A stretch of 64,000 nucleotides of DNA from an uncultured Paracoccus sp. (GTDB lineage: Bacteria > Pseudomonadota > Alphaproteobacteria > Rhodobacterales > Rhodobacteraceae), in assembly GCF_937873615.1 (NCBI RefSeq), contig NZ_CALMYP010000015.1:186001-250000 (forward strand). Direction: 5' to 3'. Numbering within the stretch: the stretch's first letter is position 1; the number at the start of each line of letters is the position of its first letter. The position numbers and the translations under genes were made by a program. Shown here piece after piece: positions 7,632-22,744 of this stretch. A model generated the notes under the pieces. The model did no database searches. It worked only from the letters and a program-made list of their open reading frames with translations, and was not told the origin of the DNA.

Positions 7632-8918
7632 TTAGCCGCCTGTCGTCGCGTTGGGGTGACTGAAGCGGGCCAGCGTTTCGGTCTTGATCTGGATCGAGAA
7701 TCCCGGCTGCGAGGGGGCCATATAGGCCCCGCCCCGAACCTCGCAGGGATCGCAGAAATGTTCGTGCAGGTGATCGACATATTCGATCACCCGGCCCTCG
7801 CGGGTGCCGGAAACGGCGATGTAATCCAGCATCGACAGGTGCTGGACATATTCGCACAAGCCCACCCCCCCGGCATGGGGCCAGACCGGCAGCCCGTATT
7901 TCGCCGCCATCAGCTGCACCGCCAGCACCTCGTTCAGCCCGCCAAGGCGGCAGGCGTCGATCTGGACCACGTCGATGGCACCGCCGGCGATGAACTGCTT
8001 GAACATGATCCGGTTCTGGCACATCTCGCCCGTGGCCACCCGCACCGGCGCCACCGCCTGCCGGATCGCGCGATGGCCCAGCACGTCGTCGGGCGAGGTC
8101 GGCTCCTCGATGAACCAGGGCCTGGCGAAATCCAGCGCCTTGACCCAGTCGATGGCCTGATCGACCTCCCAGACCTGATTGGCGTCGATCATCATGGTGA
8201 TGTCCCAGCCAAGCTCCTCGCGGGCGATGGTCAGGCGGCGGATATCGTCCTGCAGATCGCGGCCGACCTTCATCTTCACATGGCTGAACCCGGCTTCCTT
8301 CGCCTCGCGGCAGAGCCTGCGCAGCTTGTCGTCGGGATAGCCCAGCCAGCCGGCCGAGGTGGTGTAGCAGGGATAACCCTGCGCCTGCAGATCGGCGATG
8401 CGATCCGCCTTGCCGTCCTGCGCACGTTCCAGAATCGCCAGCGCCTCGGCGGGCGTCAGCGCATCGGTGAGATAGCGGAAATCGACGATCTTCAGGACCT
8501 CGGCCGGGGACATCTCGCCGACCAGCCGCCAGACCGGCTTGCCCTCGACCCGCGCCCAGAGATCCCAGACCGCGTTGACCACGGCGCCCGTCGCCAGATG
8601 GATCACCCCCTTGTCGGGGCCGACCCAGCGCAGCTGGCTGTCGCCGGTGACATGGCGCCAGAACCGGCCCGGATCCTCGCGGATCCAGTCCATGTCCAGC
8701 CCGACGACGCGGGGGGCAAGCGCCCTGATCGCGGCCACGCAAAGCTCGTTGCCGCGACCAATGGTGAAGGTCAGGCCGTGACCCTCATGTCCGCCATCGG
8801 TTTCCAGCACCACATAGGCCGCCGAATAGACCGGGTCGAGGTTCATCGCATCCGAACCGTCAAGCGCGCCTTCGGACGGAAATCTCAGGTCATATGTCCG
8901 CAGCCCGGTGATCTTCAT
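7632..8918 (-). CDS. L-fuconate dehydratase (enolase superfamily)
   Basis: A 428-residue enolase-superfamily enzyme predicted to dehydrate L-fuconate to 2-keto-3-deoxy-L-fuconate. Visible residues are the KMKVGR catalytic lysine pair, metal ligands in MMIDANQ, WFIEEP and ATGEM, the Asp of QIDACRLGG and the catalytic His of WPHAGG. These match the fuconate dehydratase subgroup, as does the unusually long N-terminal region with TFTIGRGNE. It is the last gene of the fucose operon and its ATG overlaps the FAH hydrolase stop (8915-8918). A related acid-sugar dehydratase specificity cannot be excluded, but the lactonase, SDR and FAH neighbours fit L-fucose well. Confidence 0.9.
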   Translation of the reverse strand: MKITGLRTYDLRFPSEGALDGSDAMNLDPVYSAAYVVLETDGGHEGHGLTFTIGRGNELCVAAIRALAPRVVGLDMDWIREDPGRFWRHVTGDSQLRWVGPDKGVIHLATGAVVNAVWDLWARVEGKPVWRLVGEMSPAEVLKIVDFRYLTDALTPAEALAILERAQDGKADRIADLQAQGYPCYTTSAGWLGYPDDKLRRLCREAKEAGFSHVKMKVGRDLQDDIRRLTIAREELGWDITMMIDANQVWEVDQAIDWVKALDFARPWFIEEPTSPDDVLGHRAIRQAVAPVRVATGEMCQNRIMFKQFIAGGAIDVVQIDACRLGGLNEVLAVQLMAAKYGLPVWPHAGGVGLCEYVQHLSMLDYIAVSGTREGRVIEYVDHLHEHFCDPCEVRGGAYMAPSQPGFSIQIKTETLARFSHPNATTGG

Positions 8919-9760
8919 TTGTCGGCCACCACGTCCTGACGCTGCTGGCCAAGGCCCTCGATCCCCAGTTCGACCACATCGCCCGCCTTCAGGAAGCGCG
9001 GCGGTTTCATCCCCAGCCCGACGCCGGGAGGGGTCCCGGTCGAGATCACGTCGCCCGGATGCAGCGACATGAATTGCGACAGGTAGCTGACCAGATGCGC
9101 CACCCCGAAGACCATGGTCGAGGAACTGCCATCCTGCATCTTCTCGCCATTCACGGTCAGCCACATCTTCAGATTCTGGGGATCGGCGATTTCGTCCTTC
9201 GTCACCAGCCAGGGGCCGATCTGGCCGAAATTGTCGCAGCTCTTGCCCTTGGTCCACTGGCCCGAGCGTTCGATCTGGAAGGCGCGTTCCGAGACATCGT
9301 TGGTTACCGCATAGCCGGCGACATATTCCATAGCCTCGGCTTCGCTGACATATTTGGCGTGGCGGCCGATGATGACGGCCAGTTCTACCTCCCAATCGGT
9401 CTTTTCCGAGCCGCGCGGGATCACGATCGGATCGTTCGGCCCGCAGATGGCCGAACTGGCCTTCATGAAGATGATCGGCTCCTTGGGGACCTCGGCCCCG
9501 GTTTCGGCGGCGTGGTCGGAGTAATTCAGCCCGATGCAGATGAACTTGCCGGTCCCGCCGACACAAGGACCAAGGCGCGGATCGCCAGAGACCAGCGGCA
9601 GGCTGGCCGGGTCGATCCGGCCAAGCTCGGCCAGTTTCGCGGGGTCGATGGCCGCGCCCGCGCCATCCGCAATATGCCCCGAAAGGTCGCGGATCCGGCC
9701 GTCGGTGTCGATCAGGCCCGGCTTCTCGGCGCCGGCCATGCCATAACGTACGAGTTTCAT
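8915..9760 (-). CDS. Fumarylacetoacetate hydrolase family protein, likely 2,4-diketo-3-deoxy-L-fuconate hydrolase
   Basis: A 281-residue FAH-fold enzyme with the signatures CIGLNYSDHAAE, WEVELAVIIG and STGTPPGVG. The Glu/Glu/Asp metal site is formed by these segments. In the non-phosphorylative L-fucose pathway this family cleaves 2,4-diketo-3-deoxy-L-fuconate to pyruvate and L-lactate. It sits between the SDR that would make that diketone and the dehydratase that would make its precursor. An AAGGA ribosome site precedes the ATG at 9760. Related FAH proteins act on other diketo acids, so the substrate is inferred from context. Confidence 0.87.
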   Translation of the reverse strand: MKLVRYGMAGAEKPGLIDTDGRIRDLSGHIADGAGAAIDPAKLAELGRIDPASLPLVSGDPRLGPCVGGTGKFICIGLNYSDHAAETGAEVPKEPIIFMKASSAICGPNDPIVIPRGSEKTDWEVELAVIIGRHAKYVSEAEAMEYVAGYAVTNDVSERAFQIERSGQWTKGKSCDNFGQIGPWLVTKDEIADPQNLKMWLTVNGEKMQDGSSSTMVFGVAHLVSYLSQFMSLHPGDVISTGTPPGVGLGMKPPRFLKAGDVVELGIEGLGQQRQDVVADK

Positions 9761-9771
9761 CTCATGTCCTT

Positions 9772-10503
9772 TCAGATTGTCCAGCCGCCGTCGATGCAGA
9801 CGGCCTGACCGGTGGTATAGGTTGCGCCCGCGAGGTAAAGGGCGAGATCGGCGATCTCTGTCGCCTCGCCGATGCGGCCCATGGGCTGGCGGGCGATGAA
9901 ATCGCGCTTGGCCTTGTCGTAATCGCCCGTCGCCGCCAGCCGGTCATCCAGCGAGGGCGAATGCACCGTGCCCGGGCAGATCGCGTTGCAGCGGATGCCT
10001 CGGGTCACATAATCCGCTGCGACCGCCTTGGTCAGGCCCAGAACCGCCGCCTTGGTGGTGCTGTAGGCGAAGCGGTTCGGCACGCCCTTGATGGAGCTTG
10101 CGACCGAGCTCATGTTTATGATGCAGCCCTCGCCGCGGTCCAGCATCCCGGGCAGGACCGCGCGGATGGTGCGGATCATCGAGCGCACGTTCAGGTCGAT
10201 GGCGAAGTCGAAATCCGTATTCGGCATGTCCAGAATCGTGCCGGCATGAACGAAGCCGGCGCAGTTGAACAGCACATCGACGGCCCCGATCCGCGCCACC
10301 AGATCGTTCACCGCCGAGGTATCGAGCACGTCCAGCCCATGCGCCCTGATCCCCGGCACCGCGCCGAGCGTGGCCAGCCCGGCCTCGTTGATATCCGTCG
10401 CATGGACGCTCGCCCCGGCGCGGGCGAAGGCTTCGGCGGTGGCGCGGCCGATCCCTTGGGCTGCGGCGGTGATCAGGACGGTCTTTCCGGTCAGGTCGGT
10501 CAT
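9772..10503 (-). CDS. SDR oxidoreductase, likely 2-keto-3-deoxy-L-fuconate dehydrogenase
   Basis: A 243-residue short-chain dehydrogenase. The cofactor loop reads [11 protein letters not shown]. An acidic residue after the second strand (ATDINEAG) indicates NAD preference. The catalytic pair is in [10 protein letters not shown] (Tyr and Lys), with MSSVASS supplying the Ser. The usual NNAG is FNCAG. Homologues convert 2-keto-3-deoxy-L-fuconate to the 2,4-diketo acid that the next gene would cleave. The start overlaps the MaoC gene stop by 4 bp (10500-10503). Confidence 0.87.
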
Positions 10504-10949
10504 GCCGCCCCCCTTTTCTGGATGATGTAGATATGTTCGCAGGCCAGCACGGTCCGGTCATCCTGATTCAGCACCTCGACCTTCTCGAACAGCCGCCCGT
10601 GATCGGCGCGTTTCGGGTCGTCCTCCTTGCGGGCGGCGGTGACGCGGGTGCGGATGGTGTCGCCGATGAAGACCGGGCGGACAAAGCGCAGCCGGTCGTA
10701 ACCATAGGAAAAGGCGACCGGATTGATCACCGTCGCGGTCAGCCCGATGCCGATGGCGAAGACCATGGTGCCATGGGCGATGCGCTGGCCGAACTCGCTG
10801 TCCGCCATGAAGACCGCATCCATGTGATGCGGAAAGAAATCGCCGGTATGGCCGGCATGGGTGACGAAATCGGTTTCCGTGATCGTGCGGCCGAAGGTGG
10901 TGCGGCTTTCGCCGATCTCGATATCCTCGAAATAGCGGGTGATTTCCAT
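10500..10949 (-). CDS. MaoC-family (R)-hydratase/dehydratase
   Basis: A 149-residue hot-dog-fold protein of the MaoC family. It opens [15 protein letters not shown] and carries the hydratase motif region [12 protein letters not shown], with the acidic residue and histidine needed for (de)hydration, then the [12 protein letters not shown] helix. Its start overlaps the Gfo/Idh stop as TGATG. Family members hydrate enoyl-CoA thioesters, which no other step of the L-fucose pathway needs. The CaiB/BaiF CoA-transferase at 20584-21765 could provide such a substrate. This suggests a CoA-dependent branch; the reaction is unknown. Confidence 0.85.
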
Positions 10950-11995
10950 CAGGGCGGGCTTTCGATTGGCGTGGCGGGCTGGCGGGAGGAGACGAAGGAG
11001 GCCTCGACCAGCGCCATGGTCTTCCAGGCGTCTTCCACCGGGGCGATCAGATCTTCCTCGCCGCCGGCGGCGCGTTGCAGGTTGTGCATCCGCCCGGTGA
11101 AGGCATCGGGAAACCATGCGCCCTGCAGAGGAACATCCATCCAGTCGCCGGCTTTCGGGCGTATCTGCAGGATATCGACCTCTCCCTTCGGGTAGTTCAG
11201 ATTGACGCCCAGTTGCAGAAAGGCCGCGCCCTCGGTCCCGGCCAGGCGCATCTCGCAGGCCTGATGCGGGCGGCCGTAATCCCAGTCGTGGTTGACCGAG
11301 AGCGTGCAGCGGACGCGGTCGCCGTAATCCAGAATGGCCGAGGTGCGGGTCTGCGCGACCCTGTGGCCGGGATGGCCCATGGTCTTGGCATGGATGCCCA
11401 GGGGATCGCCCAGCATCATGCGGATGCTGTCGAGGTAATGGATCGAATGCATGGTGATCTCGATCCGGGGCAGGCCGTCCAGAAAGGCCCAGAGGCTCCA
11501 GGGTGTCGCCATGACGCCGTGCATTTCCACGTCCACCACCTCGCCCAGCCAGCCTTTCGCGATGGCGTCGCGCAGGGCGATCATCATGGGCGCAAAGCGC
11601 AGCTGGAAATTCACCGCCGCCAGCAGCCTGCGTTCGCGGCAGACCGTCAGGATTTCGGTCGCACCGGCAAGGTCCATGCCCATGGGCTTCTGGATCAGCG
11701 CCGGCGCGCCTTCCGGCAGCGCCCGCAGGATGCCGGCATGGGCGGCGGGCGGGGTGGCCAGATCGAAGACCGCGCCCTCGACCCGCGCGGCGTCCTCGAT
11801 TGAGGCGAAGACCGGCAGGCCCAGTTCTGCCGCCTTCTTGCGGTCGGGATCGTAGATGCCGGCGATGTCGTAGCCGCCTTTGGCATAGGCCGGCAGATGC
11901 GCATCGCGGGTGATCGAGCCCGCGCCGAAGATCACGATGGGCCGGCGCGTTGCCGGTTCCGGCCAGTGCTGGCGCAGCGAGAGGGGATCATGCAT
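10949..11995 (-). CDS. Gfo/Idh/MocA family oxidoreductase
   Basis: A 348-residue NAD(P)-dependent oxidoreductase. The start at 11995 is used because it gives the Rossmann opening [16 protein letters not shown] close to the N-terminus and overlaps the mutarotase stop. The catalytic lysine motif is present as IQKPMG (usually EKP). The C-terminal half has the beta-sheet substrate domain with a histidine-rich [10 protein letters not shown] segment. Within this operon it may be the aldose 1-dehydrogenase producing the lactone substrate of the downstream-located lactonase, but the family is broad and this role is inferred. Confidence 0.87.
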
Positions 11996-12317
11996 GGAAA
12001 AACACCTCCTCCATCGGTGCCCACCATTCGCCATCCTTCGCGCTGTCCAGCGGGCGCTGGCAGGGCATGCAGAGCGCCCACCACTCCTGCGTCACCGGAT
12101 CGGCGGCCATCTTCGCCTGATCGGCCTGCCAATCCTCGCCGTGATATTCGAAATGCGAGAACAGCAGGTTTTCCGGCTCGCGCAGGTAGATGACGTAATT
12201 GCGGATATGGCAGGCGCTGATCATGGCCAGAACGCCGGGCCAGGCGGCGGCATGGAGCGCCTTGTATTCGGCGATCTTCTCTGGCGCGAGGCCGATGACG
12301 GAACCCATGCGGATCAT
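11988..12317 (-). CDS. L-rhamnose/L-fucose mutarotase (RhaM/YiiL-like)
   Basis: A 109-residue ferredoxin-like protein of the L-rhamnose mutarotase family, which interconverts alpha and beta anomers of 6-deoxyhexoses. It begins MIRMGSVIGL and keeps the conserved EYKALHAAAWP histidine segment, NYVIYLREPENLLFSHFEY, the WW pair and the EVFF end. Length matches the 104-residue E. coli enzyme. It overlaps the enolase-family gene by 4 bp and the Gfo/Idh gene by 8 bp. Its presence is strong evidence that the imported sugar is a 6-deoxyhexose such as L-fucose or L-rhamnose. Confidence 0.88.
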   Translation of the reverse strand: MIRMGSVIGLAPEKIAEYKALHAAAWPGVLAMISACHIRNYVIYLREPENLLFSHFEYHGEDWQADQAKMAADPVTQEWWALCMPCQRPLDSAKDGEWWAPMEEVFFHA

Positions 12318-13435
12318 GGCGCGGCCTCGGTGATCGAGCGGGTGAATTCGGGAATGGCGCGCCCGGCGATGGCGTCCAGATCCCAGTCGATGCCAAGCCC
12401 CGGGGTTTCGGGGGCGAAGGCCTGTCCGTTTTCGATGCGCAACCCGGACTGGGTGATCTCGTCCAGTTGCGGGATATATTCGACATAGCGCCCGTTCTGC
12501 ACCGCGCAGACCAGCGAGGCATGAAGCTCCATCAGGAAATGCGGGCAGACGGGGATATCGAAGCCCTCGGCCATATGGGCGACCTTCAGCCAGGGGGTAA
12601 TGCCGCCGATACGCCCGGCATCGACCTGAATGATCCCGCAGGCGTCGCGGGCGGCATATTCGGCGAAATGGCGGATGGAATAGAGCGATTCGCCGACAGC
12701 GATGGGAATGGGCGTCGATGCGGCCAGCGAGACATGGCCCGCGATATCGTCGGCGGGCAGCGGCTCCTCGATCCAGGCGAGGTTGAAGGTGGCAAGCGCC
12801 TCGGCCCGGCGGCGCGCGCTGTCACGCGCAAAGCCCTGATTGGCATCGGTCATGATCTCGTAGCCGTCGCCCACGGCCTCGCGCAGCGCGGCGATGCGGG
12901 CCACGTCCTCGGCGATGACGGGGCGGCCGATCTTGACCTTGGACCCGGTAAAGCCCTGCGCCTGCGCGTTCAGCGCGTCCTCGACAATCGCCTCGGTCGG
13001 CAGGTGCAGCCAGCCGCCCTCGGTCGTATAGCAGGGCGCGGATGGCCGCGCGCCGCCGGCCATCCGCCACAGTGGCAGCCCGGCCTTGCGGCAGCGCAGG
13101 TCCCAAAGTGCTGTGTCGATGGCCGCCAGCGCGATCGAGGTGATGGCGCCGATGGTGGTGGCATGGGTCAGGAATTCCAGCTCGTGCCAGATCGCCTCGA
13201 CCTCGGTCGCCTCGCGCCCGATCAGGCGCGGGCAAAGGTGATCGGCCAAGAGCCGCATGACCGAGGACCCGCCCGTGCCGATGGTATAGGAATAGCCCAT
13301 GCCCTGCCCGCCATCGCTGTCGGTGATGGCGACCAGCGGGGTTTCTTGACTGACGAAGCTCTGGATCGCATCCCGGCGTTCGACCTTGGGGGCCAGATCG
13401 ACCATGGCCAGCTGGATGCGTTCGATCCGGGCCAT
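12314..13435 (-). CDS. Mandelate racemase/muconate lactonizing enzyme family protein (second enolase-superfamily enzyme)
   Basis: A 373-residue enolase-superfamily enzyme distinct from the fuconate dehydratase of the same operon. All catalytic parts of the MR subgroup are visible: the KVKIG lysine pair, metal ligands in MTDANQG, WIEEPL and VGESLYS, and the Asp/His dyad in QVDAGRIGG and CPHF. That set supports acid-sugar dehydration or racemisation at carbon 2. The start at 13435 forms TGATG with the ATPase stop. The substrate is not identifiable. A second acid sugar, or the other epimer, is the simplest idea. Confidence 0.87.
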   Translation of the reverse strand: MARIERIQLAMVDLAPKVERRDAIQSFVSQETPLVAITDSDGGQGMGYSYTIGTGGSSVMRLLADHLCPRLIGREATEVEAIWHELEFLTHATTIGAITSIALAAIDTALWDLRCRKAGLPLWRMAGGARPSAPCYTTEGGWLHLPTEAIVEDALNAQAQGFTGSKVKIGRPVIAEDVARIAALREAVGDGYEIMTDANQGFARDSARRRAEALATFNLAWIEEPLPADDIAGHVSLAASTPIPIAVGESLYSIRHFAEYAARDACGIIQVDAGRIGGITPWLKVAHMAEGFDIPVCPHFLMELHASLVCAVQNGRYVEYIPQLDEITQSGLRIENGQAFAPETPGLGIDWDLDAIAGRAIPEFTRSITEAAP

Positions 13436-14529
13436 CACGCATCCCTCAGGCTGAGGCCGGATTCGGCATCGAACAGATGCGCCCGCGACAGGTCGAACTG
13501 GAATTCGACCACCTCGCCCCGGCGCAGGTGGCGCGGGTTCAGCATCCGGCTGGTCCATTCCTGCCCGCCGAAGCGGATGAACAGCAGGGTCTCGTTGCCG
13601 AGCGGTTCGGTCAGCTCGACCTCCAGCGGGCGGGTCTCGACCTGCGTGCCGGCGTGAAGGCCGTGGCCGGTCGGATAAATGTCGTCAGGACGCAGCCCGA
13701 AGGTGACCCGCTGCCCTTCGCTGACGCGGTCGCGGAATGCCTGCGGCAAGGGCAGTTCGGCGCCGTCGGGCGCGCGCAGCCGGTCGCCCCTCACCTCGGC
13801 CTCGATCATGTTCATCGGCGGAGAGCCGATGAAGCCGGCGACAAAGCGTGTGGCCGGGCGGTTGAAGACCTCGTCGGGGGTGTCGGCCTGCTCGATATGG
13901 CCGTCGCGCATGATGACGATGCGGTCGGCCAGGGTCATCGCCTCGACCTGATCATGGGTGACATAGACCACGGTCGCGCCCAGCCGGGCATGCAGCTTCT
14001 TGATCTCGGTCCGCATCTGGCCGCGCAGCTTGGCGTCGAGGTTGGACAGCGGTTCGTCGAACAGGAACACGTCCGGGCTGCGCACGATGGCGCGGCCCAT
14101 GGCGACGCGCTGGCGCTGACCGCCGGAAAGCTGGGCCGGGCGGCGGTCCAGCAATGGCTCGATCTCCAGCGCGCGGGCGGCCTCGGCCACGGCGGCGTCG
14201 ATCTCGGCCTGCGGGCGCTTGGCGATCTTCAGGGTGAAGCCCATGTTCTCGCGCACGGTCATATGCGGGTAAAGCGCATAGGACTGGAACACCATCGAGA
14301 TATTGCGCTGGCGCGGCGCAAGGTCGTTGACCAGCCTTTCGCCGATCAGGATATCGCCGCCCGAGATCTCCTCCAGCCCCGCGATCATGCGCAGCGTGGT
14401 GGACTTGCCGCAGCCCGAGGGGCCGACAAGCGCCACGAATTCGCCATCGCTGACGGCAAGGTCGATGCCCTTCACGGCATGGAAGCCGCCATATCTCTTG
14501 TCCAACCGGTTCAGTGTCAGATCGGCCAT
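13435..14529 (-). CDS. CUT1 sugar ABC transporter ATP-binding protein (UgpC/MsmK-like)
   Basis: A 364-residue ATPase with Walker A GPSGCGKST (36-44), signature LSGGQRQ (134-140), Walker B VFLFDEP (154-160) and switch His192. A long C-terminal MalK-type regulatory domain contains TFGLRPDDIYPTG. It energises the carbohydrate importer formed with the two upstream permeases and the binding protein. It lies 4 bp after the inner permease and leads directly into the enzyme genes of the same operon. Confidence 0.94.
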   Translation of the reverse strand: MADLTLNRLDKRYGGFHAVKGIDLAVSDGEFVALVGPSGCGKSTTLRMIAGLEEISGGDILIGERLVNDLAPRQRNISMVFQSYALYPHMTVRENMGFTLKIAKRPQAEIDAAVAEAARALEIEPLLDRRPAQLSGGQRQRVAMGRAIVRSPDVFLFDEPLSNLDAKLRGQMRTEIKKLHARLGATVVYVTHDQVEAMTLADRIVIMRDGHIEQADTPDEVFNRPATRFVAGFIGSPPMNMIEAEVRGDRLRAPDGAELPLPQAFRDRVSEGQRVTFGLRPDDIYPTGHGLHAGTQVETRPLEVELTEPLGNETLLFIRFGGQEWTSRMLNPRHLRRGEVVEFQFDLSRAHLFDAESGLSLRDA

Positions 14530-14533
14530 GGTC

Positions 14534-15400
14534 CTATCCCTTCACCGCGCCGGCGGTCAGGCCGGACACGAGATGTTTCTGCACCGCATAGGTCAGCGCC
14601 AGCGCCGGCACGATCATCACCACGGCAAGCGCGCACATGCCGCGCCAGTCGATGGTGAATTCCGCAGTGTAATCCAGAAGCCCGACCGGCAGCGTCTTGC
14701 TGTTGGTCGAGCGCGTCAGTTGCGAGGCGAGCGCGAATTCGTTCCACGCCGTCAGGAAGGCGAAGATGCCGGCGCTGGCAATGCCGGGACGGGCCAGCGG
14801 AAACTCGACCGTCCAGAAGGCCTGCCAGCGGGTGCAGCCGTCGATCTGCGCCGCCTCGGCCAGATCGCGCGGGACCTGACGGAAGAAGCCGTCGATCAGC
14901 CAGACCGTGAAGGGCACGTTCATCGCCACATAGGCGAGGATCAGCCCGAAATGCGTGTCGATGATGCCAAGCTTCGCATAGATGAAAAACAAAGGCAGCG
15001 ACAGCGCGATACCGGGCACCGTCCGCGTCAGCATCAGGCCAAGGAACCAGCCCGACTTGCCCCGGAAGCGATAGCGCGCGAAGGCATAGCCGCCGGCCAT
15101 GCCGATCGCCAGCGCGATCACGGTCGAGGTGACGGCGATGATGATCGAGTTGCGGAAATAGGCGATCACCGGGATGCCACCAGAGCCGACGCCGGAAAAC
15201 ATCGCCACATAGGCATCGAAGTTCAGTTCATGCGGGATCCAGACCGGGGGCTTGGCCATGATCTCGACCGTGGGGCGCAGCGAGTTCAGCACGATCCACA
15301 GCCCCGGCAGGCAGATGATCGCCATGGCCAGAAACAGCGCGATATTCAGCCCCCAGCGGGTCAGGCGCTTGCGGATGCGGGATGATCTGTTGGCGTCCAT
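14534..15400 (-). CDS. CUT1 sugar ABC transporter permease (MalG-like)
   Basis: A 288-residue permease. The ATG at 15400 is chosen since it lies just after the upstream permease stop and gives a short charged N-terminus (MDANRSSRIRKRL) before the first membrane span. Six hydrophobic spans are visible, with the EAA loop DLAEAAQIDGCTRWQAFWTV. It ends in the long periplasmic and last-helix pattern of MalG-type proteins. It pairs with the MalF-like permease at 15402-16298. Confidence 0.93.
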   Translation of the reverse strand: MDANRSSRIRKRLTRWGLNIALFLAMAIICLPGLWIVLNSLRPTVEIMAKPPVWIPHELNFDAYVAMFSGVGSGGIPVIAYFRNSIIIAVTSTVIALAIGMAGGYAFARYRFRGKSGWFLGLMLTRTVPGIALSLPLFFIYAKLGIIDTHFGLILAYVAMNVPFTVWLIDGFFRQVPRDLAEAAQIDGCTRWQAFWTVEFPLARPGIASAGIFAFLTAWNEFALASQLTRSTNSKTLPVGLLDYTAEFTIDWRGMCALAVVMIVPALALTYAVQKHLVSGLTAGAVKG

Positions 15401-15401
15401 G

Positions 15402-16298
15402 CTACCACTCCGCCGCGATCTGTTCGCGGGATTGCGCGAGTTTGCGGAAGAAGATGACCGTGAACAGGATCGATAGCAGGATCGCGACATAGGCCATGGC
15501 ATTGGCCATGCCCATCTTGGAATCGGCGTATCCGGTGCGCGCGATCAGCGTCCAGAGCACCTCGGTCCGTCGCGCCGGGCCGCCATCGGTCATGATCTTG
15601 ATGATGTCATAGGCCCGCGCCACATCCAGCGAGCGGATGGTCATGGCGATGAAGGCGAAGGGCATCAGGAAGGGCCAGGTCACAAAGCGGAAGGTCTGCC
15701 AGGGCGTGCAGCCATCGACGCGCGCGGCCTCCAGCGGGTCGCGGGGCATGGCCATCAGCCCGGCCAGGATGAAGATCGCGAAAACCGAGGTCGAGGACCA
15801 GATCTCGGCCACGACGATCGAGAAGAAGGCCAGATGCTGGTCGATCAGCCAGGGGATCGCGCTATTGGTCAGCCCCAGCGATTGCAGGGCGTTGTTCACC
15901 AGCCCGACATTGTCGTTGAACATGAACTTGAACTGGAAGCCCACCAGCACCGGCGAGAACATCATCGGAAACATCAGCAGCGTGCGCAGGATGCGCTGCC
16001 CGCGGCTGGCGCGCTCGATCAGCAGGGCAAGACCGAGGCCGAGCAGCATTTCCAGGTTCAGCGCCACGGTCAGCAGCAGCACCGTGCGCCCGAAGGCCGA
16101 CCAGAACTGGCCGTCGCCCATCAGCCGGGCATAGTTGCGCAGGCCGACGAAGTCATAGATCGAATCCGGCCGGGTCAGCCGGAACGGGGTCAGGCTGGAC
16201 CAGAAGGACAGGATCAGCGGCAGGATCACCACCGCCAGCAGCACCAGAACCGCCGGCAGCAGCAGCAGGATATGCGGGGATAGACGCCAGGGTTTCAT
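15402..16298 (-). CDS. CUT1 sugar ABC transporter permease (MalF-like)
   Basis: A 298-residue permease beginning MKPWRLSPHILLLLPAVLVLL, with six membrane spans and the EAA loop PLEAARVDGCTPWQTFRFVT that contacts the ATPase. It is separated from the binding-protein gene by 59 bp holding a strong hairpin (16327-16349), the usual arrangement that keeps binding-protein mRNA more abundant than permease mRNA. Confidence 0.93.
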   Translation of the reverse strand: MKPWRLSPHILLLLPAVLVLLAVVILPLILSFWSSLTPFRLTRPDSIYDFVGLRNYARLMGDGQFWSAFGRTVLLLTVALNLEMLLGLGLALLIERASRGQRILRTLLMFPMMFSPVLVGFQFKFMFNDNVGLVNNALQSLGLTNSAIPWLIDQHLAFFSIVVAEIWSSTSVFAIFILAGLMAMPRDPLEAARVDGCTPWQTFRFVTWPFLMPFAFIAMTIRSLDVARAYDIIKIMTDGGPARRTEVLWTLIARTGYADSKMGMANAMAYVAILLSILFTVIFFRKLAQSREQIAAEW

Positions 16299-16357: not shown

Positions 16358-17662
16358 TCAGAGCTCGCCTGCGTCCTCAAGGACCTGCGTCGCTTCTTCG
16401 GCGGCGGCGTTCAGCGCATCCTCGACCGATTTGTCGCCAAGGATCGCGGCCTGAAGCTCGGGATAGACGACATTGGTGATCTCGATCCAGCTCGGCGTGC
16501 GCGGCACCGGATAGGCGCCCTGCGCGGCCACCTGGAAGGCGGCGAGCGCCTCGGCACGGTAAGGATCGCTGGCCGCTTCGGCGATGATGTGATCCCAGAC
16601 CGCGTTGCGCGTCGGCAAGGGGCCGGCGCCGCTTTCCAGCTTCTGGCTGTCCTCGTTGGTCAGGAACCAGACCAGCGAGGCGGCGGCCTCGGGCGTGGCG
16701 CAATCCTCGGTCACGGAAAAGCCGTGGAAGCCCGACCAGCCGCTGCGCGCGCCCGAGGATCCCTTGGGCGGCGGGGCCACGCCGACATTGCCGGCGATCT
16801 TGCTGGAAGCCGGGTCGTTGAAGAAGCCCATCCAGCCCGGCCAGTCATGGTCGATGGCGACGGTGCCCGAGGCGAAGCCCTGCCCGAGATCGTCCCAGAG
16901 GTAATTCGGCACCCCGCTCGGCACCGCGCCGGCCTTGTAGAGATCGACGAACCATTGCAGCGTCGCCGCCCCGGCTTCCGAGTTGAAGGCGGGCTTGCCC
17001 TCGGCATCCAGAAACTCGCCGCCATTCGACAGCAGCATTTCATAGAAGCGCCCGGCGATGGCCTCTTCCTTGCCGGCATATTGGGTGCCGTAGAAATCCG
17101 GCGGGTTGGCGAAGAACTTCGCCTGATCGGCCAGTTGGTCCCAAGTGTAGGGCGGGGCCAGATCATAGCCGAGTTTTTCCTTGAAGGCGATCTTGTTTGC
17201 CTCATCCTCGTAAAGCGATTTCTGGTAATAGACCGCCGAGACATCGAACTGCGCCCGGGGCAGCATGACCAGCTTGTCTTCCAGCGTCGCCGCGTCCAGC
17301 GTGGCGGGCACGAAATCCGCCAGGGCCTCTGCCGGCAGAAGCGCGCGCAGATCGGCATAGATGCCGGGATATTGCGGCGCGAAGGACGAGTGGTTCGAGC
17401 CGACGCACCAGCCAAGCTGGCCGGTGGCGATGTCGGATTTGATTTCGCGATCCAGCTCGAAATGGTTTTTCTTCGAGATCACGTCGACCTTGGCGCCGGT
17501 CGCCGCCTCCCATTCGGCGATGCGGGCGTAGAGTGCCTCGTATTGCTGGCCGCCGATCAGCTTGGCCTGAACGGTCACGCCGTCGAACTTGCCGGGCAGG
17601 TCCTGCGCCATGACGCCGGTGGCGCCGACCAGAACCAGCGCGGTGGTGGTCAAGAGTTTCAT
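16358..17662 (-). CDS. CUT1 sugar ABC transporter substrate-binding protein
   Basis: A 434-residue family 1 extracellular solute-binding protein and the first gene of the 11-gene fucose operon. The ATG at 17662 follows a strong AGGGAGGAAGAC ribosome site. The N-terminus (MKLLTTTALVLVGATGVMA) is a signal peptide, cleaved near residue 18-19. The mature part shows the typical KVDVISKKNHFELDREIKSD lobe and the WSGFHGFSV / LVWFLTNEDSQKLES C-terminal pattern. Ligand prediction from the linked enzymes is L-fucose or another 6-deoxy sugar or its glycoside. Confidence 0.92.
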   Translation of the reverse strand: MKLLTTTALVLVGATGVMAQDLPGKFDGVTVQAKLIGGQQYEALYARIAEWEAATGAKVDVISKKNHFELDREIKSDIATGQLGWCVGSNHSSFAPQYPGIYADLRALLPAEALADFVPATLDAATLEDKLVMLPRAQFDVSAVYYQKSLYEDEANKIAFKEKLGYDLAPPYTWDQLADQAKFFANPPDFYGTQYAGKEEAIAGRFYEMLLSNGGEFLDAEGKPAFNSEAGAATLQWFVDLYKAGAVPSGVPNYLWDDLGQGFASGTVAIDHDWPGWMGFFNDPASSKIAGNVGVAPPPKGSSGARSGWSGFHGFSVTEDCATPEAAASLVWFLTNEDSQKLESGAGPLPTRNAVWDHIIAEAASDPYRAEALAAFQVAAQGAYPVPRTPSWIEITNVVYPELQAAILGDKSVEDALNAAAEEATQVLEDAGEL

Positions 17663-17722
17663 GTCTTCCTCCCTTGAGCACCGGGTTGCCGCATGTTTGA
17701 TCATGCATCAGTAAGTGCTCTG

Positions 17723-17790: not shown

Positions 17791-17808
17791 ATGAATTGGA
17801 CAATTCAT
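17791..17808 (+). promoter_or_regulatory. Perfect 18-bp palindrome at the IclR start, probable autoregulatory operator
   Basis: ATGAATTGGACAATTCAT has 8-bp perfect arms and a 2-bp centre. It ends next to the GGAGGAAC ribosome site of the IclR gene (ATG 17818). Binding here could block both transcription and ribosome access. IclR proteins commonly repress their own gene from palindromes of this size. Confidence 0.5.
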
Positions 17809-17817
17809 GGAGGAACG

Positions 17818-18591
17818 ATGACCGAAGAGGATCGTTACCGTGCCCCGGCCTTGGACAAGGGGCTGGATATGCTGGAATTGCTGGCTGAAATCGACGGCGG
17901 GCTGACCCAGGCCGAGATTGCGAAAAGCCTCGGCCGGACCCCGAACGAGCTTTACCGGATGCTCGACCGTTTGCAGCGGCGCGGCTATGTCACCCGAATC
18001 GATGGCGACCGTTTCGCGCTGACGCTGAAGATGTTCGGCCTCGCGCAACTGCACGCGCCGACGCGGCGGCTGGTCAGCTATGCCACGCCCCTGATGCGAG
18101 ATCTGGCCGGGCGCGCCCGGCAGGCGGTGCATCTGGCCGTCTTCGACCGGGGGCAGGTCGTCGTCGTCGCCCAGCAGGAGGCGCCGACCTATTGGGGGAT
18201 CAGCATCCGCGTCGGTTCGCATATCGGGCTTTTCGATACCGGATCGGGCCATATCCTGCTGGCCTTCAACACGCCCGAGCGGCGCGAGATGATGCTGACC
18301 GAAAACCGTGCCGAAGCCGGTCGCACCGTGCCTCGGGCGCTGGCCGAACGCTTCAACCGCATCCGAGAGCAGGGCTATGAAAGCATGCCCTCGGCGCAGA
18401 CGGCGGGGGTGTTCAACCTGTCGGCGCCGATCCTTGCCGGGGATGGCAATGCCATCGCGGCGCTGACCGTGCCTTACATTCCGCTGGTGAACGCAGCCGA
18501 CGCGCCCGACATGTCCGATTGCACGCATCTGCTGGTCGAAACCTGCCAGAGACTGTCCGAAATGGCCGGCATGCGCGAGGAGAGCGCCTGA
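17818..18591 (+). CDS. IclR-family transcriptional regulator of the fucose locus
   Basis: A 257-residue regulator. The ATG at 17818 is preferred for its GGAGGAAC site. The winged helix-turn-helix covers roughly residues 15-70 (GLTQAEIAKSLGRTPNELYRMLDRLQRRGYV). A GAF-like effector domain follows from about 75 to the end, with the conserved SAPILAGDGNAIAALTVP segment. It diverges from the sugar ABC operon and is cotranscribed with the lactonase. Palindromes at 17791-17808 and elsewhere are candidate sites. Effector, likely a pathway intermediate, is not known. Confidence 0.9.
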   Translation: MTEEDRYRAPALDKGLDMLELLAEIDGGLTQAEIAKSLGRTPNELYRMLDRLQRRGYVTRIDGDRFALTLKMFGLAQLHAPTRRLVSYATPLMRDLAGRARQAVHLAVFDRGQVVVVAQQEAPTYWGISIRVGSHIGLFDTGSGHILLAFNTPERREMMLTENRAEAGRTVPRALAERFNRIREQGYESMPSAQTAGVFNLSAPILAGDGNAIAALTVPYIPLVNAADAPDMSDCTHLLVETCQRLSEMAGMREESA

Positions 18592-18619: not shown

Positions 18620-19465
18620 ATGACCGCAATCATCGACACGCATCTGCACTTGGTGGACCGCAGCCGGTTGACCTATCCATGGCTGGCCGAAGCGCCGGCG
18701 CTGGACCGCGACTGGAGCCATGCCGAATACGCGGGTGAGGCCGCAGCCGCCGGAATTGCCCGCGCGCTTTACATGGAGGTCGATGTGGCCGGCGACATGA
18801 TCGGTGCCGAGATCGACGTGATCGAGGCCCTGCCGCCGCGCACCGATACCCCCATCGCCGGCATCATCGCCGCCTGCCGGCCCGAGCAGGACGGCTTTGC
18901 CGCCGAGATCGAGCGGGCGCAGGACCGCGCCTCGGTCGTGGGCTTCCGGCGGGTGCTGCATGTGATGCCGGACGAGCTGTCGCAGACCGCGCTGTTTCGC
19001 GACAATATCCGCAGGCTCGGCCCCGCCGGGCTGCCCTTTGATCTGTGCGTGCAGGCGCGGCAATTGCCGCTGGCCACGGCGCTTGTCGATGCCGCGCCCG
19101 AAACGCAATTCGTGCTGGATCACTGCGGCGTGCCCGACATCGCCGGCGGGGCCTATGACGATTGGGCGCGCGATATCGCCGCGCTGGCGCTGCGCGACAA
19201 TGTGGTGGCCAAGGTCTCGGGCCTGCCGGCCTATGCGGCCGAGGGCTGGACCGCCGCCGACCTGCGGCCATGGGTTCATCACGTCGCCGAATGTTTCGGC
19301 CTCGACCGGCTGGTCTGGGGCAGCGACTGGTTCGTCTGCACCCTGGGCGGCGGGCTGACGAAATGGGCCAGCGCCAGCCGGGCGCTGTTCGACATGGTCT
19401 CGGAGCAGGAGCGCGAGATGCTCTTCTCCGGCAATGCCGCCCGGATCTGGAACCTGCCGGGCTGA
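18620..19465 (+). CDS. Amidohydrolase-family lactonase, likely L-fuconolactonase
   Basis: A 281-residue TIM-barrel hydrolase of the amidohydrolase 2 family (PDC/fuconolactonase type). Metal and catalytic residues appear in DTHLHLVD near the N-terminus, VLDHCGVPDI in the middle and WGSDWFV near the C-terminus. Homologues open L-fucono-1,5-lactone to L-fuconate, the substrate of the dehydratase at 7632. It follows the IclR gene by 28 bp, with a GGGGAGGAG ribosome site. Other sugar lactones are possible substrates. Confidence 0.87.
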   Translation: MTAIIDTHLHLVDRSRLTYPWLAEAPALDRDWSHAEYAGEAAAAGIARALYMEVDVAGDMIGAEIDVIEALPPRTDTPIAGIIAACRPEQDGFAAEIERAQDRASVVGFRRVLHVMPDELSQTALFRDNIRRLGPAGLPFDLCVQARQLPLATALVDAAPETQFVLDHCGVPDIAGGAYDDWARDIAALALRDNVVAKVSGLPAYAAEGWTAADLRPWVHHVAECFGLDRLVWGSDWFVCTLGGGLTKWASASRALFDMVSEQEREMLFSGNAARIWNLPG

Positions 19466-19471
19466 TCCGGC

Positions 19472-20587
19472 TCAGCCGGCGGTGAAGGTGGCGGCGAAAA
19501 GCCGGCCCATATCGTCGATGGCCGCGCCGAAATCGCCATCCTTCAGCGCCTGCGCGATCCGTGCCGAGGCCGCGTCCTGAAACGGCATATAGCCGTCATG
19601 GCGCGGGCGCAGCACGGCCCCGGCCAGCGTGCGTGCGGTGCCGGAATAGAAGCCGCCGGCCTCGGCATCGACATTCGCGTCATGCCAGGCCTCGCCATGA
19701 CCAACCTGCCCGCCAGAACCGGCATAGAGCCCGCGCTGAACCTCTGGACCGGCGACATGGCGGGCGAAGGCGATGGCGGCCTCGGGCTTGGTGGAAAAGG
19801 CCGACACCGCGATCCCGGTTCCGCCAAGCGCCGATCCCGCCACGCCTGCGCCGGGCCGGGTTTCGGCGATGTCATGGAAGGACAGGCGCTTGCCCGGCGC
19901 ATCGCGGCGGGAATAGCTGACATAGCCATAGGCCAGCGGCACGCAGGCGATCTGGTCGCCCGCTGCCATCCGTTCATAGACCTCGATAGGGTCCCAGTCA
20001 TAGCAGGCGGGATCGACAAGTGCGGCGAGTGCTGCCAGCCGTTCCAGCGCCGCGATCCCGGCCTTGCGGTCGACGAATTGGCCGGGGCCCTCGGTCCTGA
20101 CCGGATGGCCGGCATTGGCCACCAGCGTCAGGAAAGACATCAGGATATGTGGCGCCCTGAGCGGGATCGCGACCCGGCCCGATTTCGCCAGGTCAAGCAC
20201 CTCGTCCCAAGTCGCGGGCGCTTGCCCGATCAGGTCGGGCCGGATCGCCTGCACCTGGGTCGCGGCGTCGATCGGATAGGCCCATTGCTTCCCCTGCCAG
20301 ACATAGCTGGGATAGGACAGCCCGACACTGGCCCGCGCGATCTCGGGCGCGTCGGGCAGGGGATGCAGGCAGCCCTCGGCGGTGATCTGGCCGACATGGG
20401 GGTGGTCGATGACGATCAGGTCGTATTCGCGGGCCAGCGTCTCGACCGGGTAGCTTTCGAAATCCTGCAGCGAGCGCTTGTCCCAATGGATGCCGACACC
20501 GGTATCGCGCTGCCATTCGGCCGAAACCGCGACCATCGGATCGTAGCCGCGCGGGTGGTTCCAGGTCATTCCCCTGAGCGTGGTCAT
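19472..20587 (-). CDS. Solute-binding-protein-like protein without a signal peptide
   Basis: A 371-residue protein with the fold pattern of family 1 extracellular solute-binding proteins (segments LIVIDHPHVGQI, YPSYVWQGKQWAYPIDAATQVQA, GTGIAVSAFSTKPEAAIAF). Its N-terminus, MTTLRGMTWNHPRGYDP, is neither hydrophobic nor cleavable, so it should remain in the cytoplasm. Its ATG overlaps the CoA-transferase stop by 4 bp, so the two are coupled. No permease is encoded with it. A cytosolic ligand-binding or accessory role for the CoA-transferase is possible; no function is established by the sequence. Confidence 0.75.
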   Translation of the reverse strand: MTTLRGMTWNHPRGYDPMVAVSAEWQRDTGVGIHWDKRSLQDFESYPVETLAREYDLIVIDHPHVGQITAEGCLHPLPDAPEIARASVGLSYPSYVWQGKQWAYPIDAATQVQAIRPDLIGQAPATWDEVLDLAKSGRVAIPLRAPHILMSFLTLVANAGHPVRTEGPGQFVDRKAGIAALERLAALAALVDPACYDWDPIEVYERMAAGDQIACVPLAYGYVSYSRRDAPGKRLSFHDIAETRPGAGVAGSALGGTGIAVSAFSTKPEAAIAFARHVAGPEVQRGLYAGSGGQVGHGEAWHDANVDAEAGGFYSGTARTLAGAVLRPRHDGYMPFQDAASARIAQALKDGDFGAAIDDMGRLFAATFTAG

Positions 20588-21765
20588 AGCCCGAATTCCT
20601 TGCGGATCTGTTCCGTCTGATCGCCGACGCGGGGGGCTGCGCGCGCGTTCGCGGGGCGGCGCCCGTCCAGCGTCAGCGGCGAGCGTGTGGTCCTGATCCT
20701 CACGCCATCCTCGCGCGTGACCAGTTGCAGCATGTCCAGCCTGGCAAAGCCCTCGCTGGCCAGAAGCTCGGGCCAGTTCATGACCTCGGCGCACCAGATA
20801 TCGGCGGGTTGCAGGATCGACAGCCAATGCGCGACCGTGCCGCTGGAAAGGCGCTCCGCCAACGCCTCCTTGATCTCGTCGCGGCGGCGGAAGCCGGCAT
20901 CGGGCTGGCCCTCGGTCAGATCGGGCATGTCGAGCAGCGCGAACAGTCCCGGCAAGGGCGTCATCGCCAGCGCCAGATGGCCATCCTCGCAGGCATAGAC
21001 GCCGTAGGGCGCCGACAGATAGGCATGGGCGCTGTTGCGCGCGGCCCGGCTGGGCAGGCGACGGCCATCGTTCAGATAGGTGGTCAGCACCTCGAATTGC
21101 AGGTCGATCAGGGCCTCCAGCAAGCTGGTCTCGACCAGCCGGCCACGCCCCGAGACGCCGCGCCCGACAAGCGCGGCCAGAATCCCCTGGCTCAGCGCCA
21201 CGCCGGCCATCATGTCGGCCACGGCAAGGCCCATCGGCACCGGCCCCTGTCCGGCATCGCCGCTGAGCCAGGTCAGCCCGGAGCGCGCCTGTGCCAGCAG
21301 GTCCTGCCCCGGCAGCCCGACCCATGGGCCGGAGGTGCCGTAACCGCTGATCGAGCCATAGACGATGCGCGGATTGATCGCCTGCACCGCCGGCCAGTCC
21401 AGCCCCATCCGCGCCGCCACGCCGGGGCGGAAATTCTGGATCACCACATCGGCCTGCGCCAGCAGCCGTTTCAGCGCCGCCAGATCGCCCGCGTCCTTGA
21501 GGTCGAGCGCGATGCTTTCCTTGCCGCGATTGATGGCGTGAAAGATCGTGCTGTCGCCGCCGATCTCGGTATCGGACAGGTAAAGCTGGCGCGACAGGTC
21601 GCCTGCGCCTGGGCGTTCCACCTTGATCACCCGCGCGCCAAGGTCCGAGAGCCGCAGCGAACAATAGGGCCCGGACAGGAACTGGCTGAGGTCAACGACG
21701 ACCAGCCCGGCCAGCGGCAGGTCCTGCGGATCCGGCGGCGCGGATGCGGATGAAAGATCTGCCAC
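20584..21765 (-). CDS. CaiB/BaiF (family III) CoA-transferase
   Basis: A 393-residue CoA-transferase. The GTG at 21765 is chosen because GGAGGG lies 6 nt upstream; an ATG at 21813 falls inside a palindrome and has no such site. The N-terminal Rossmann-like part reads LVVVDLSQFLSGPYCS. The catalytic aspartate is D184 in AVADMMAG. Members move CoA between carboxylic acids without free ATP use. Its place beside the fucose locus, with matching palindromes upstream, suggests co-regulation. Substrate unknown; a sugar-derived acid or lactate is conceivable. Confidence 0.88.
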   Translation of the reverse strand: MADLSSASAPPDPQDLPLAGLVVVDLSQFLSGPYCSLRLSDLGARVIKVERPGAGDLSRQLYLSDTEIGGDSTIFHAINRGKESIALDLKDAGDLAALKRLLAQADVVIQNFRPGVAARMGLDWPAVQAINPRIVYGSISGYGTSGPWVGLPGQDLLAQARSGLTWLSGDAGQGPVPMGLAVADMMAGVALSQGILAALVGRGVSGRGRLVETSLLEALIDLQFEVLTTYLNDGRRLPSRAARNSAHAYLSAPYGVYACEDGHLALAMTPLPGLFALLDMPDLTEGQPDAGFRRRDEIKEALAERLSSGTVAHWLSILQPADIWCAEVMNWPELLASEGFARLDMLQLVTREDGVRIRTTRSPLTLDGRRPANARAAPRVGDQTEQIRKEFGL

Positions 21766-21800
21766 CGAAGGCCCTCCAGGTTTCCTTCCTCCGGGGCAGG

Positions 21801-21815
21801 TTATGAAATTCATAA
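21801..21815 (-). promoter_or_regulatory. Palindrome upstream of the CoA-transferase operon
   Basis: TTATGAAATTCATAA is a perfect 15-bp palindrome with a single central base, 36 bp upstream of the GTG start. It shares ATGAA/TTCAT half-sites with the IclR-proximal palindromes. Confidence 0.45.
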
Positions 21816-21827
21816 ATGGTTGGCAAG

Positions 21828-21839
21828 TTCATATATGAA
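21828..21839 (-). promoter_or_regulatory. Second palindrome upstream of the CoA-transferase operon
   Basis: TTCATATATGAA is a perfect 12-bp palindrome 12 bp beyond the first one. Two sites spaced like this suit a dimeric-of-dimers IclR protein. The rest of the 268-bp gap up to 22033 contains no recognisable gene. Confidence 0.45.
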
Positions 21840-22033
21840 GTTATCGGTGACGTGTCCTGCCGGCTGCCGGGCGGGGCGTGGCACTCAGGAATTTTCAATC
21901 AGGCTCGCCTCTTGTCGTAGAAATCATACGAAATGGTTTATTTGCTCGCTTGATGTGCGGCCTGACCCGGCATAAAAGGGCGCAAATTTGGCTGCTGGCA
22001 GATACGCGGCGGCCCCAAAGATCGGGTGTCCAG

Positions 22034-22744
22034 ATGCAGGATATCGTTGTTTCCGTTCATATTCCGAAAACCGGCGGCACCAGTTTCCGGCGCATACTCG
22101 AAGACTGTTATGGTCGCGCGATCCTTGAGGATTACGATTGGCTGAAGCGACCGAAAGCACTGGCCGGCACCGATCTCGATGCCAGCGATGACCAGATCCG
22201 CGCCGCCCTGAAGGGTGTGCGCTGCATCCACGGCCATTTCCCGGCCCAGAAATACAAGCGCCTGCGCGAGATCGAGGGGATCCGCCCGATCTTCATCACA
22301 TGGCTGCGCGACCCGGTGGAGCGTGCCGTGTCGGCCTATTATTTCCTGCGCGCCAACCCCTCGAACCAGCCGGTTGCGGACATGCCGCCCTGGGAACAGG
22401 GTGCCAAGACAATGAGTGCCGAGGAATTCCTGACCCAAACGAAATACGGTGCCAACCGACAGGCCGCGCAGTTGCGCAACATGCCGCTGGAAGGGTTCGA
22501 CTTTATCGGCTGTACCGAGGCCTATGACGCGTCGATCGAGGTCTTCAACAAACTCTTTCGACCCGGCCGCCCGCTGCACAAAGTGCCTGTCGAACGCAAG
22601 AATCCCGACCGCAAGGGCGACCGCTACGACCTGACCCCGCGTGTCCGCAAGGCCCTGGTCGAGATGAACGGGCATGATTTCGCGCTGCACCGCTATGCGC
22701 AGGGCTGGGTGCAGGGGGCGCATCGCGTGTTGCGCCCGCTCTGA
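22034..22744 (+). CDS. Sulfotransferase family protein
   Basis: A 236-residue PAPS-dependent sulfotransferase-like protein. The phosphosulfate-binding P-loop is HIPKTGGTS (9-17). The 3'-phosphate site is RDPVERAVS (92-100), the pattern of carbohydrate and Golgi-type sulfotransferases. The start at 22034 puts the P-loop at the usual distance from the N-terminus; an ATG at 21953 is possible. It has no linked biosynthetic genes and lies between divergent/convergent catabolic operons. It may modify a surface polysaccharide. Orphan position and AT-richer upstream DNA hint at separate acquisition. Confidence 0.82.
   Translation: MQDIVVSVHIPKTGGTSFRRILEDCYGRAILEDYDWLKRPKALAGTDLDASDDQIRAALKGVRCIHGHFPAQKYKRLREIEGIRPIFITWLRDPVERAVSAYYFLRANPSNQPVADMPPWEQGAKTMSAEEFLTQTKYGANRQAAQLRNMPLEGFDFIGCTEAYDASIEVFNKLFRPGRPLHKVPVERKNPDRKGDRYDLTPRVRKALVEMNGHDFALHRYAQGWVQGAHRVLRPL

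Follow-up and report, generated by a model that had tools for sequence, protein, structure and literature searches.

A stretch of 64,000 nucleotides from an uncultured Paracoccus sp. (contig NZ_CALMYP010000015.1, positions 186,001 to 250,000; hereafter the window) carries on its minus strand an overlapping pair of genes for a CoA-transferase and a protein with the fold of a solute-binding protein (SBP). The latter, termed cSBP (19472..20587, 371 amino acids), lacks a signal peptide and is predicted to be cytosolic; the former, CoAT (20584..21765), is a family III (CaiB/BaiF) CoA-transferase. An earlier note on this DNA had read a solute-binding body in the 371-residue frame, and its coordinates and strand were borne out along with domain matches to PF13416 (SBP_bac_8; 54.6 bits, cut-off 27) and PF01547 (SBP_bac_1; 32.3 bits, cut-off 26). 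The gene overlap that it reported is likewise real, as the ATG of cSBP lies at 20587 and the CoAT stop ends at 20584, giving 4 bp in common. CoAT matches PF02515 over its full length (326.8 bits, cut-off 23.3). Its frame stays open as far as an ATG at 21813 (open frame 20584-21813), and because GGAGG stands 7 bases ahead of the GTG at 21765, this GTG is probably the start, giving a protein of 393 amino acids. The cSBP-CoAT module is real, conserved and so far undescribed in the open literature searched: a same-strand CoAT lies within 400 bp of cSBP in 106 of 116 loci, and the pair recurs across classes and phyla.

On the plus strand, the window holds genes for an IclR-family regulator (17818..18591, within an open reading frame from 17740; likely protein start MTEEDRYRAP), for a COG3618-type amidohydrolase resembling L-fuconolactonase (18620..19465) and, adjoining the CoAT-cSBP pair, for a protein with a Sulfotransfer_2 match (21878-22744; 28.5 bits, cut-off 22). 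The remaining genes of the locus lie on the minus strand. They encode the secreted SBP of an ATP-binding cassette (ABC) system (16358..17662, N-terminus MKLLTTTALVLVGATGVMAQ) and a complete CUT1-type ABC system (13435..16298), with permeases at 15402-16298 and 14534-15502 and an ATPase at 13435-14529; the earlier statement that no permease accompanies cSBP was thus mistaken. The secreted SBP, searched as 16358-17704, matched no Pfam family at E 0.1, and its homologues carry sugar ABC binding-protein annotations. Then follow an MR/MLE enolase-superfamily protein resembling sugar-acid dehydratases (12314..13435), an L-rhamnose/L-fucose mutarotase-like RhaM (11994..12317; 74% to an annotated Qingshengfaniella gene), a Gfo/Idh/MocA oxidoreductase (GFO, 10949..12034), a MaoC-type enoyl-CoA hydratase with a GDFFPHH motif (10500..10949), a short-chain dehydrogenase (SDR, 9772..10503) that may be a 2-keto-3-deoxy-fuconate dehydrogenase, an FAH-family hydrolase (8915..9760) whose best model is 2,4-didehydro-3-deoxy-L-rhamnonate hydrolase, and a second MR/MLE protein, a candidate fuconate dehydratase (7632..8924).

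This gene set makes an oxidative 6-deoxyhexose pathway of the L-fucose type plausible, and to that extent the L-fucose locus proposed in the earlier note stands. The curated models tested score short of their cut-offs: the L-fucono-1,5-lactonase model NF052480 gave 91.7 bits with the COG3618 gene (cut-off 400) and the 2,4-didehydro-3-deoxy-L-rhamnonate hydrolase model NF053535 gave 422.8 bits with the FAH gene (cut-off 500). For related modules in Persicobacter, Croceibacterium and Halostagnicola, L-fucose is supported by alpha-L-fucosidase genes close by. A role in anti-phage defence was rejected, as there was no PADLOC match.

The location of cSBP was judged from N-terminal hydrophobicity and from the open frame upstream. 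A conserved GMTWxHPRG motif begins at residue 6 of the window protein and lies a few residues past the start across the family. None of 121 cSBP proteins reached the hydrophobicity threshold of 2.0 (median 0.69, maximum 1.75), as against 52 of 69 secreted SBPs from such loci (median 2.16). The secreted SBP of the window itself scores 1.55, which shows that some true signals escape the test, but the two groups remain clearly apart. An upstream start that would supply a signal peptide was looked for and none is conserved; an in-frame stop lies within 20 codons ahead of the motif in 38 of 118 cSBP genes. On these grounds a misread start or hidden signal peptide was rejected. The signal-less N-termini, which agree with the earlier description, point to a cytosolic location for cSBP.

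The pairing with CoAT is close and follows a regular geometry. Among the 106 pairs, CoAT comes first in 93 and cSBP in 13. Where the overlap was measured, the start codon lies exactly 4 bp within the preceding gene in 80 of 93 cases; in one of the 80, L014, that gene is not CoAT. Homologues are therefore not routinely found alone with ABC permeases, a pattern that would have spoken against the earlier view of a cytoplasmic binding protein tied to a CoA-transferase. The pairing also holds where much of the locus is missing: seven loci with long flanks have no matches to the secreted SBP, permease, GFO, RhaM, IclR or COG3618 proteins, and CoAT still adjoins cSBP in five of them (L009, L024, L068, L084 and L139; not L113 or L118). 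The reverse search, with window CoAT as query at E<=1e-80 in genomes not chosen for cSBP, found CoAT in 16 of 398 genomes of the window's phylum, all within the 18 that have cSBP, and all 20 matched CoAT genes were next to cSBP or one gene off. In the two remaining genomes with cSBP (G642 and G655), a more distant CoAT lies beside cSBP or one gene from it. Among 121 close relatives, five had CoAT, each with an adjacent cSBP. Fisher p values for co-occurrence, uncorrected for relatedness, were 1e-26 for the phylum and 1e-7 for the close relatives. The cSBP-CoAT partnership is thus well supported, and it may extend to physical contact between the two proteins. Gene fusion as proof of contact was dropped, none being found among the loci tested.

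Several departures from the usual CoAT gene were seen. In Sinorhizobium meliloti 1021 pSymB (L009:6839-7989), the CoAT gene next to cSBP changes frame close to its end, through either gene breakage or a sequence error, and a CoAT match in another genome (G525 C1:1707862-1709019) has one in-frame TAA. Tandem genes, CoATa-CoATb, accompany cSBP in L012, L015, L115, L138 and L139, and perhaps encode a two-subunit CoA-transferase. Genomes G402 and G664 have a further cSBP copy with no CoAT near it.

Evolutionary distances tell the same story about partners, cSBP sharing its history with CoAT more than with the permeases. The alignments exclude cSBP matches scoring less than 120 bits, CoAT rows shorter than 330 amino acids or more than 400 bp away, and other rows under set lengths or 45% identity. 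Across 109 pairs, the cSBP and CoAT distance matrices correlated at r 0.92, and 500 shuffles gave at most 0.29. All ten proteins were present in 43 of 121 loci, where cSBP correlated at 0.92 with CoAT and at 0.53-0.59 with the permeases. Dereplication left 19 dissimilar loci, in which cSBP correlated at 0.90 with CoAT, 0.75 with RhaM, 0.68 with GFO, 0.66 with MaoC, 0.47 each with IclR and the secreted SBP, 0.32 with MSD1 and 0.29 with MSD2; the secreted SBP correlated at 0.95 with MSD1 and 0.91 with MSD2. In 984 of 1000 subsamples, no protein correlated better with cSBP than CoAT did. Once GFO, MaoC, IclR and RhaM were removed, cSBP had a partial correlation of 0.80 with CoAT; for the permeases and the secreted SBP the values ran from -0.04 to -0.33.

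The family is patchy and widespread in its distribution, as for a mobile catabolic module. Plasmid searches with the window, Rufibacter and Microvirga members each returned 145 records and 154 places (E<=1e-10), and identical totals from three such distant queries mark the cSBP family off from transport SBPs at large. Where these records carry annotations (the PLSDB gene tables are incomplete), cSBP is called an extracellular or ABC-transporter binding protein. A scan of species genomes confirmed at least 551 relatives; the best 80 of these, many of them from Mesorhizobium, went into the set of loci. With class and phylum defined relative to the window, and the best few candidates scored per genome, cSBP occurred in 7 of 121 close relatives, 6 of 289 genomes of the class, 18 of 398 of the phylum and 2 of 229 of another class in that phylum (the class of G525); the Croceibacterium cSBP, used as query, matched in 5 of 149 genomes from the G619 family. 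Relatives are known from Alphaproteobacteria, another proteobacterial class, Bacteroidota and Streptomyces. One cSBP match (G042 C3:24327-25448; L004, L105) holds an in-frame TGA. A second clade (L013, L107-L109, L136, L155-L157), with about 40% identity to window cSBP, sits between its own type of CoAT and a crotonase, together with an SDR and mostly also an aldose-epimerase-like protein (DUF4432 in L155); it likely serves another sugar.

Around the pair, transport genes vary and genes for CoA chemistry stay. Neighbours were counted as BLAST matches to chosen reference proteins, which misses divergent ones, and L155-L159 were left out of the counts. Flanks of 6 kb or more on both sides were available for 99 loci; of these, 96 had a CoAT match and 91 a MaoC or crotonase match; CUT1 permeases were matched in 67 and CUT2 in 31, and 16 had no ABC permease or ATPase match. 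IclR was matched in 79 and absent from the matches in 20, and the pair is also found with LacI genes. In Bacteroidota the order is cSBP-CoATa-CoATb-SBP2-GFO with MaoC (SBP2 being a second binding protein, described below), alongside a RhaT symporter and SusC/D-type genes, and annotated ABC permease or ATPase genes are absent across 45 and 49 kb there. In Streptomyces, cSBP lies with FAH, CoAT, MFS, MaoC and aldehyde dehydrogenase genes; a Rhizobium locus (Q54) has TRAP, CoAT, crotonase and cSBP genes with an ABC system on the opposite strand; three sphingomonad loci (L155-L157) hold an epimerase-SDR-CoAT-cSBP-crotonase run without ABC match; and in Ponticoccus, cSBP-CoAT faces FAH-SDR-UxaA-UxaA-MaoC-GFO-mutarotase.

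Ten cSBP residues in the first third of the chain (W9, R13, W35, F43, D56, D61, P63, G66, D107 and A109) and ten further on (P217, Y225, G255, G256, G258, Q284, G293, Q294, W301 and R327) are invariant in all 121 members. Sequence searches of solved structures matched cSBP to transport-type sugar-binding proteins, and it shares its fold and several motifs with CUT1-type SBPs such as 1EU8 (trehalose/maltose-binding) and LpqY (7APE). D61, G255-G256 and R327 align with a D, GG and R of trehalose/maltose-binding proteins, positions that bind sugar in 1EU8. The ligand in the cleft of cSBP is probably a sugar or sugar acid. Unlike CUT1 SBPs, cSBP has no signal peptide, co-varies with the permeases at just 0.29-0.32, neighbours a CoA-transferase and carries the family-specific motifs TWxHPRG and WALPIDAATQV; against the MalE equivalog NF007011 it scored 35.8 bits (curated cut-off 291). 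The 109 paired CoATs that were aligned all have a catalytic-type Asp, presumably the equivalent of FRC Asp169, and the Asp and His of the MaoC GDFFPHH motif are kept in 68 of 68.

With slightly more confidence than doubt, we suggest that cSBP acts in the cytosol as a dedicated partner of CoAT, and that the two belong to a branch of sugar-acid catabolism that depends on CoA and in most cases includes sugar dehydrogenases and an enoyl-CoA hydratase (MaoC or crotonase). For such a branch we infer the following order of steps and hydratase reaction. A GFO or SDR dehydrogenase with a lactonase would convert a sugar or 6-deoxysugar to its aldonate; cSBP would close around the sugar acid or lactone and hand it to CoAT, or orient it there; CoAT would load CoA onto the carboxylate; MaoC or crotonase would remove or add water beside the thioester; and the product would enter the SDR/FAH end of the pathway, with CoA passing to the next acid. 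If this is right, the transporter-type annotations found in this family of at least 551 relatives are wrong in both place and function, and Proteobacteria, Bacteroidota, Streptomyces and perhaps haloarchaea process sugar acids in the form of CoA thioesters, a route not met with in the open papers searched. A transport fold, in proteins usually named as transporters, appears to have been recruited into cytosolic CoA chemistry.

We advance more tentatively, and as something that we rather doubt, that CoAT, cSBP and MaoC or crotonase together form a CoA-dependent sugar-acid dehydratase that replaces the IlvD/EDD or enolase-superfamily aldonate dehydratases. Just as doubtful is that the former transport protein would then be an obligate substrate-presenting subunit, with CoA passed directly to the next acid. 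Such a dehydratase would explain operons of sugar dehydrogenase, CoAT, cSBP, hydratase and FAH without IlvD/EDD nearby (for example L155), and the 11 genomes tested gave no PF00920 (IlvD/EDD) match closer than 20 kb to cSBP. Speaking against it, in a neighbourhood test of 10 genomes, MR/MLE genes lie about 5-11 kb from cSBP in G776, G838, G752 (contig 26), G619, G525, G566 and G042 (contig 3); the search out to 20 kb gave no MR/MLE gene in G655, G060, G009, G042 (contig 27) and G752 (contig 35).

Some observations weigh against a dedicated partnership in CoA-dependent catabolism. Since the window has two MR/MLE proteins and Ponticoccus a UxaA pair with MaoC in one operon, CoA-dependent dehydration would be redundant there, and the fucose-enzyme models tested all score under their cut-offs. 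Co-variation and co-occurrence could reflect linkage alone, because the two genes travel together; in the 19 loci cSBP also shows a correlation of 0.67 with the importer ATPase (NBD); and cSBP evolves faster than its neighbours (mean distance 0.41 vs 0.19-0.30). No cSBP-CoAT fusion occurs in the loci tested. Ten of 116 cSBP genes have no CoAT within 400 bp: L014, L070, L096 and L112-L114 lack a same-strand CoAT match in the DNA available, and in L118, L119, L145 and L146 CoAT is 0.8-6.5 kb away. Several of these cSBPs adjoin ManD or MR/MLE genes, so cSBP does not strictly need CoAT as a neighbour.

The same exceptions lend something to the idea that cSBP is itself an enzyme acting on pathway intermediates, for example in lactone opening, and not a subunit of CoAT, since L014, L112-L114, L145 and L146 have no adjoining CoAT and yet lie by sugar-acid genes. 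The many invariant Trp, Arg, Asp and Tyr residues count in its favour as well, and the SDR-CoAT-cSBP-crotonase clade (L107-L109, L155-L157) has no lactonase among the reference matches. There is a precedent for the fold: MqnA, MqnD and 4,5-dihydroxyphthalate decarboxylase are cytosolic enzymes with a type II binding-protein fold. These enzymes are absent from the sequence matches shown, however; the structures that cSBP matched are transport-type sugar-binding proteins, with no type II binding-protein-fold enzyme among those shown, and cSBP changes faster than its neighbours. We regard an enzymatic cSBP as a minority possibility.

The earlier note had left it between a protein that delivers or senses a ligand for the transferase and a new subunit. 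A cytosolic sensor, acting on the regulator or allosterically on CoAT, would suit the IclR matches in four-fifths of the long-flank loci and the palindromes common to both window promoters; we think it improbable, given a co-variation that is low with IclR (0.47) and high with CoAT (0.90), the pairs found with LacI genes and the 20 of 99 loci without an IclR match. That co-variation, stronger with CoAT than with IclR or the permeases, favours delivery or a subunit over sensing. Somewhat less probable again is that cSBP is soluble and buffers or stores a free sugar or sugar acid, with no link to what CoAT does: the SBP fold and its conserved cleft-type residues speak for this, and the close association with a single CoAT subfamily in several phyla speaks against it. 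An ordinary importer subunit, its start misread or its export achieved otherwise, is the least probable of all. It has on its side the fold and the frequency of CUT1 and CUT2 permease matches (67 and 31 of 99 loci), and was rejected on neighbourhood counts and permease co-variation (0.29-0.32): none of the 121 N-termini is hydrophobic, about a third of the genes have a close upstream stop, a separate, secreted SBP belongs to the window importer, 16 of the 99 loci lack an ABC match, and so do the three sphingomonad loci with the crotonase run.

A putatively cytosolic binding protein linked to a CoA-transferase is a new kind of system, although its parts belong to known superfamilies; we call it new because no known system named or found makes this link. 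CoAT resembles formyl-CoA transferase, succinate-HMG CoA-transferase and YfdE in its whole-length PF02515 match and catalytic-type Asp. It differs from known family III CoA-transferases in reaching no listed NCBIfam equivalog cut-off (best 191 of 750 bits) and in having a binding protein as its usual neighbour. Benzylsuccinate CoA-transferase (PDB 9FN0) has two family III subunits, comparable with the CoATa-CoATb tandem of Bacteroidota and of L138 and L139, which come from another proteobacterial class; unlike it, the window has a single CoAT whose further partner has a binding-protein fold. With the oxidative L-fucose (diketo-hydrolase) pathway the window shares candidates for mutarotase, dehydrogenase, lactonase, MR/MLE, SDR and FAH proteins. 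That pathway is not known to involve a CoA-transferase, a MaoC protein or a binding protein of the cytosol. The fucose-pathway passages of PMC5507952, which give its scheme, mention none of the three, and neither in those passages nor in the passages on fuconate of PMC11378808 is a pair like cSBP-CoAT mentioned. The fucose transporter of S. meliloti treated in the relevant passages of PMC3454389 is different from the one here. In open PMC full texts (subscription papers and preprints lie outside), CoA-transferase and solute-binding protein occur together nowhere with MaoC and mutarotase, nor with sugar acid and hydratase; fucose, CoA-transferase and MaoC come together in a paper about bioplastics from seaweed (PMC9676036).

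As the earlier note had described, two perfect palindromes, TTATGAAATTCATAA (21801..21815) and TTCATATATGAA (21828..21839), precede the CoAT-cSBP pair and share ATGAA/TTCAT half-sites with a third, ATGAATTGGACAATTCAT (17791..17808), just ahead of the likely IclR start. With CoAT starting at GTG 21765, the first two lie upstream of its gene and not within it, and they may be operators. They are hardly conserved, a loose version occurring upstream of 2 of 111 CoAT matches and 11 of 68 secreted-SBP matches, and on these counts a single regulon shown by a conserved operator was rejected.

FAH-family proteins of 385-400 amino acids lie near cSBP in L155 (7631-8785), L118 (9251-10453) and L127. They are related (57-58% to the L118 protein), and the L155 protein best matches structure 9KKT, followed by 2-keto-3-deoxy-D-arabinonate dehydratase (2Q18); in these loci the module may take a Weimberg-like form that serves a pentose.

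A second signal-less binding protein, the CUT1-like SBP2, occurs in eight loci (L115:13436-14668, L012, L015, L116:9992-11179, L117:9992-11227, L142, L143 and L159), with a hydrophobic N-terminus in none of the eight (the Rufibacter start is uncertain). That it is a close sister of cSBP was rejected, the profile comparison giving 14% identity at 97.8% probability; it is closer to the window's secreted SBP (20%, 99.7%), and we claim no special descent because SBP2 strongly matches 1EU8 too. Of the 149 genomes sampled from the G619 family, 3 have SBP2 at E<=1e-40, and these three carry the cSBP closest to that of Croceibacterium, with SBP2 5-7 kb from cSBP. It may likewise have joined cytosolic CoA chemistry. 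GFO is its neighbour in three loci of Bacteroidota and four of sphingomonads; in the haloarchaeon Halostagnicola it lies by MaoC, GFO, mutarotase, acyl-CoA ligase and CoAT genes, and in Croceibacterium it adjoins a CUT2-like ABC system with a different binding protein of its own.

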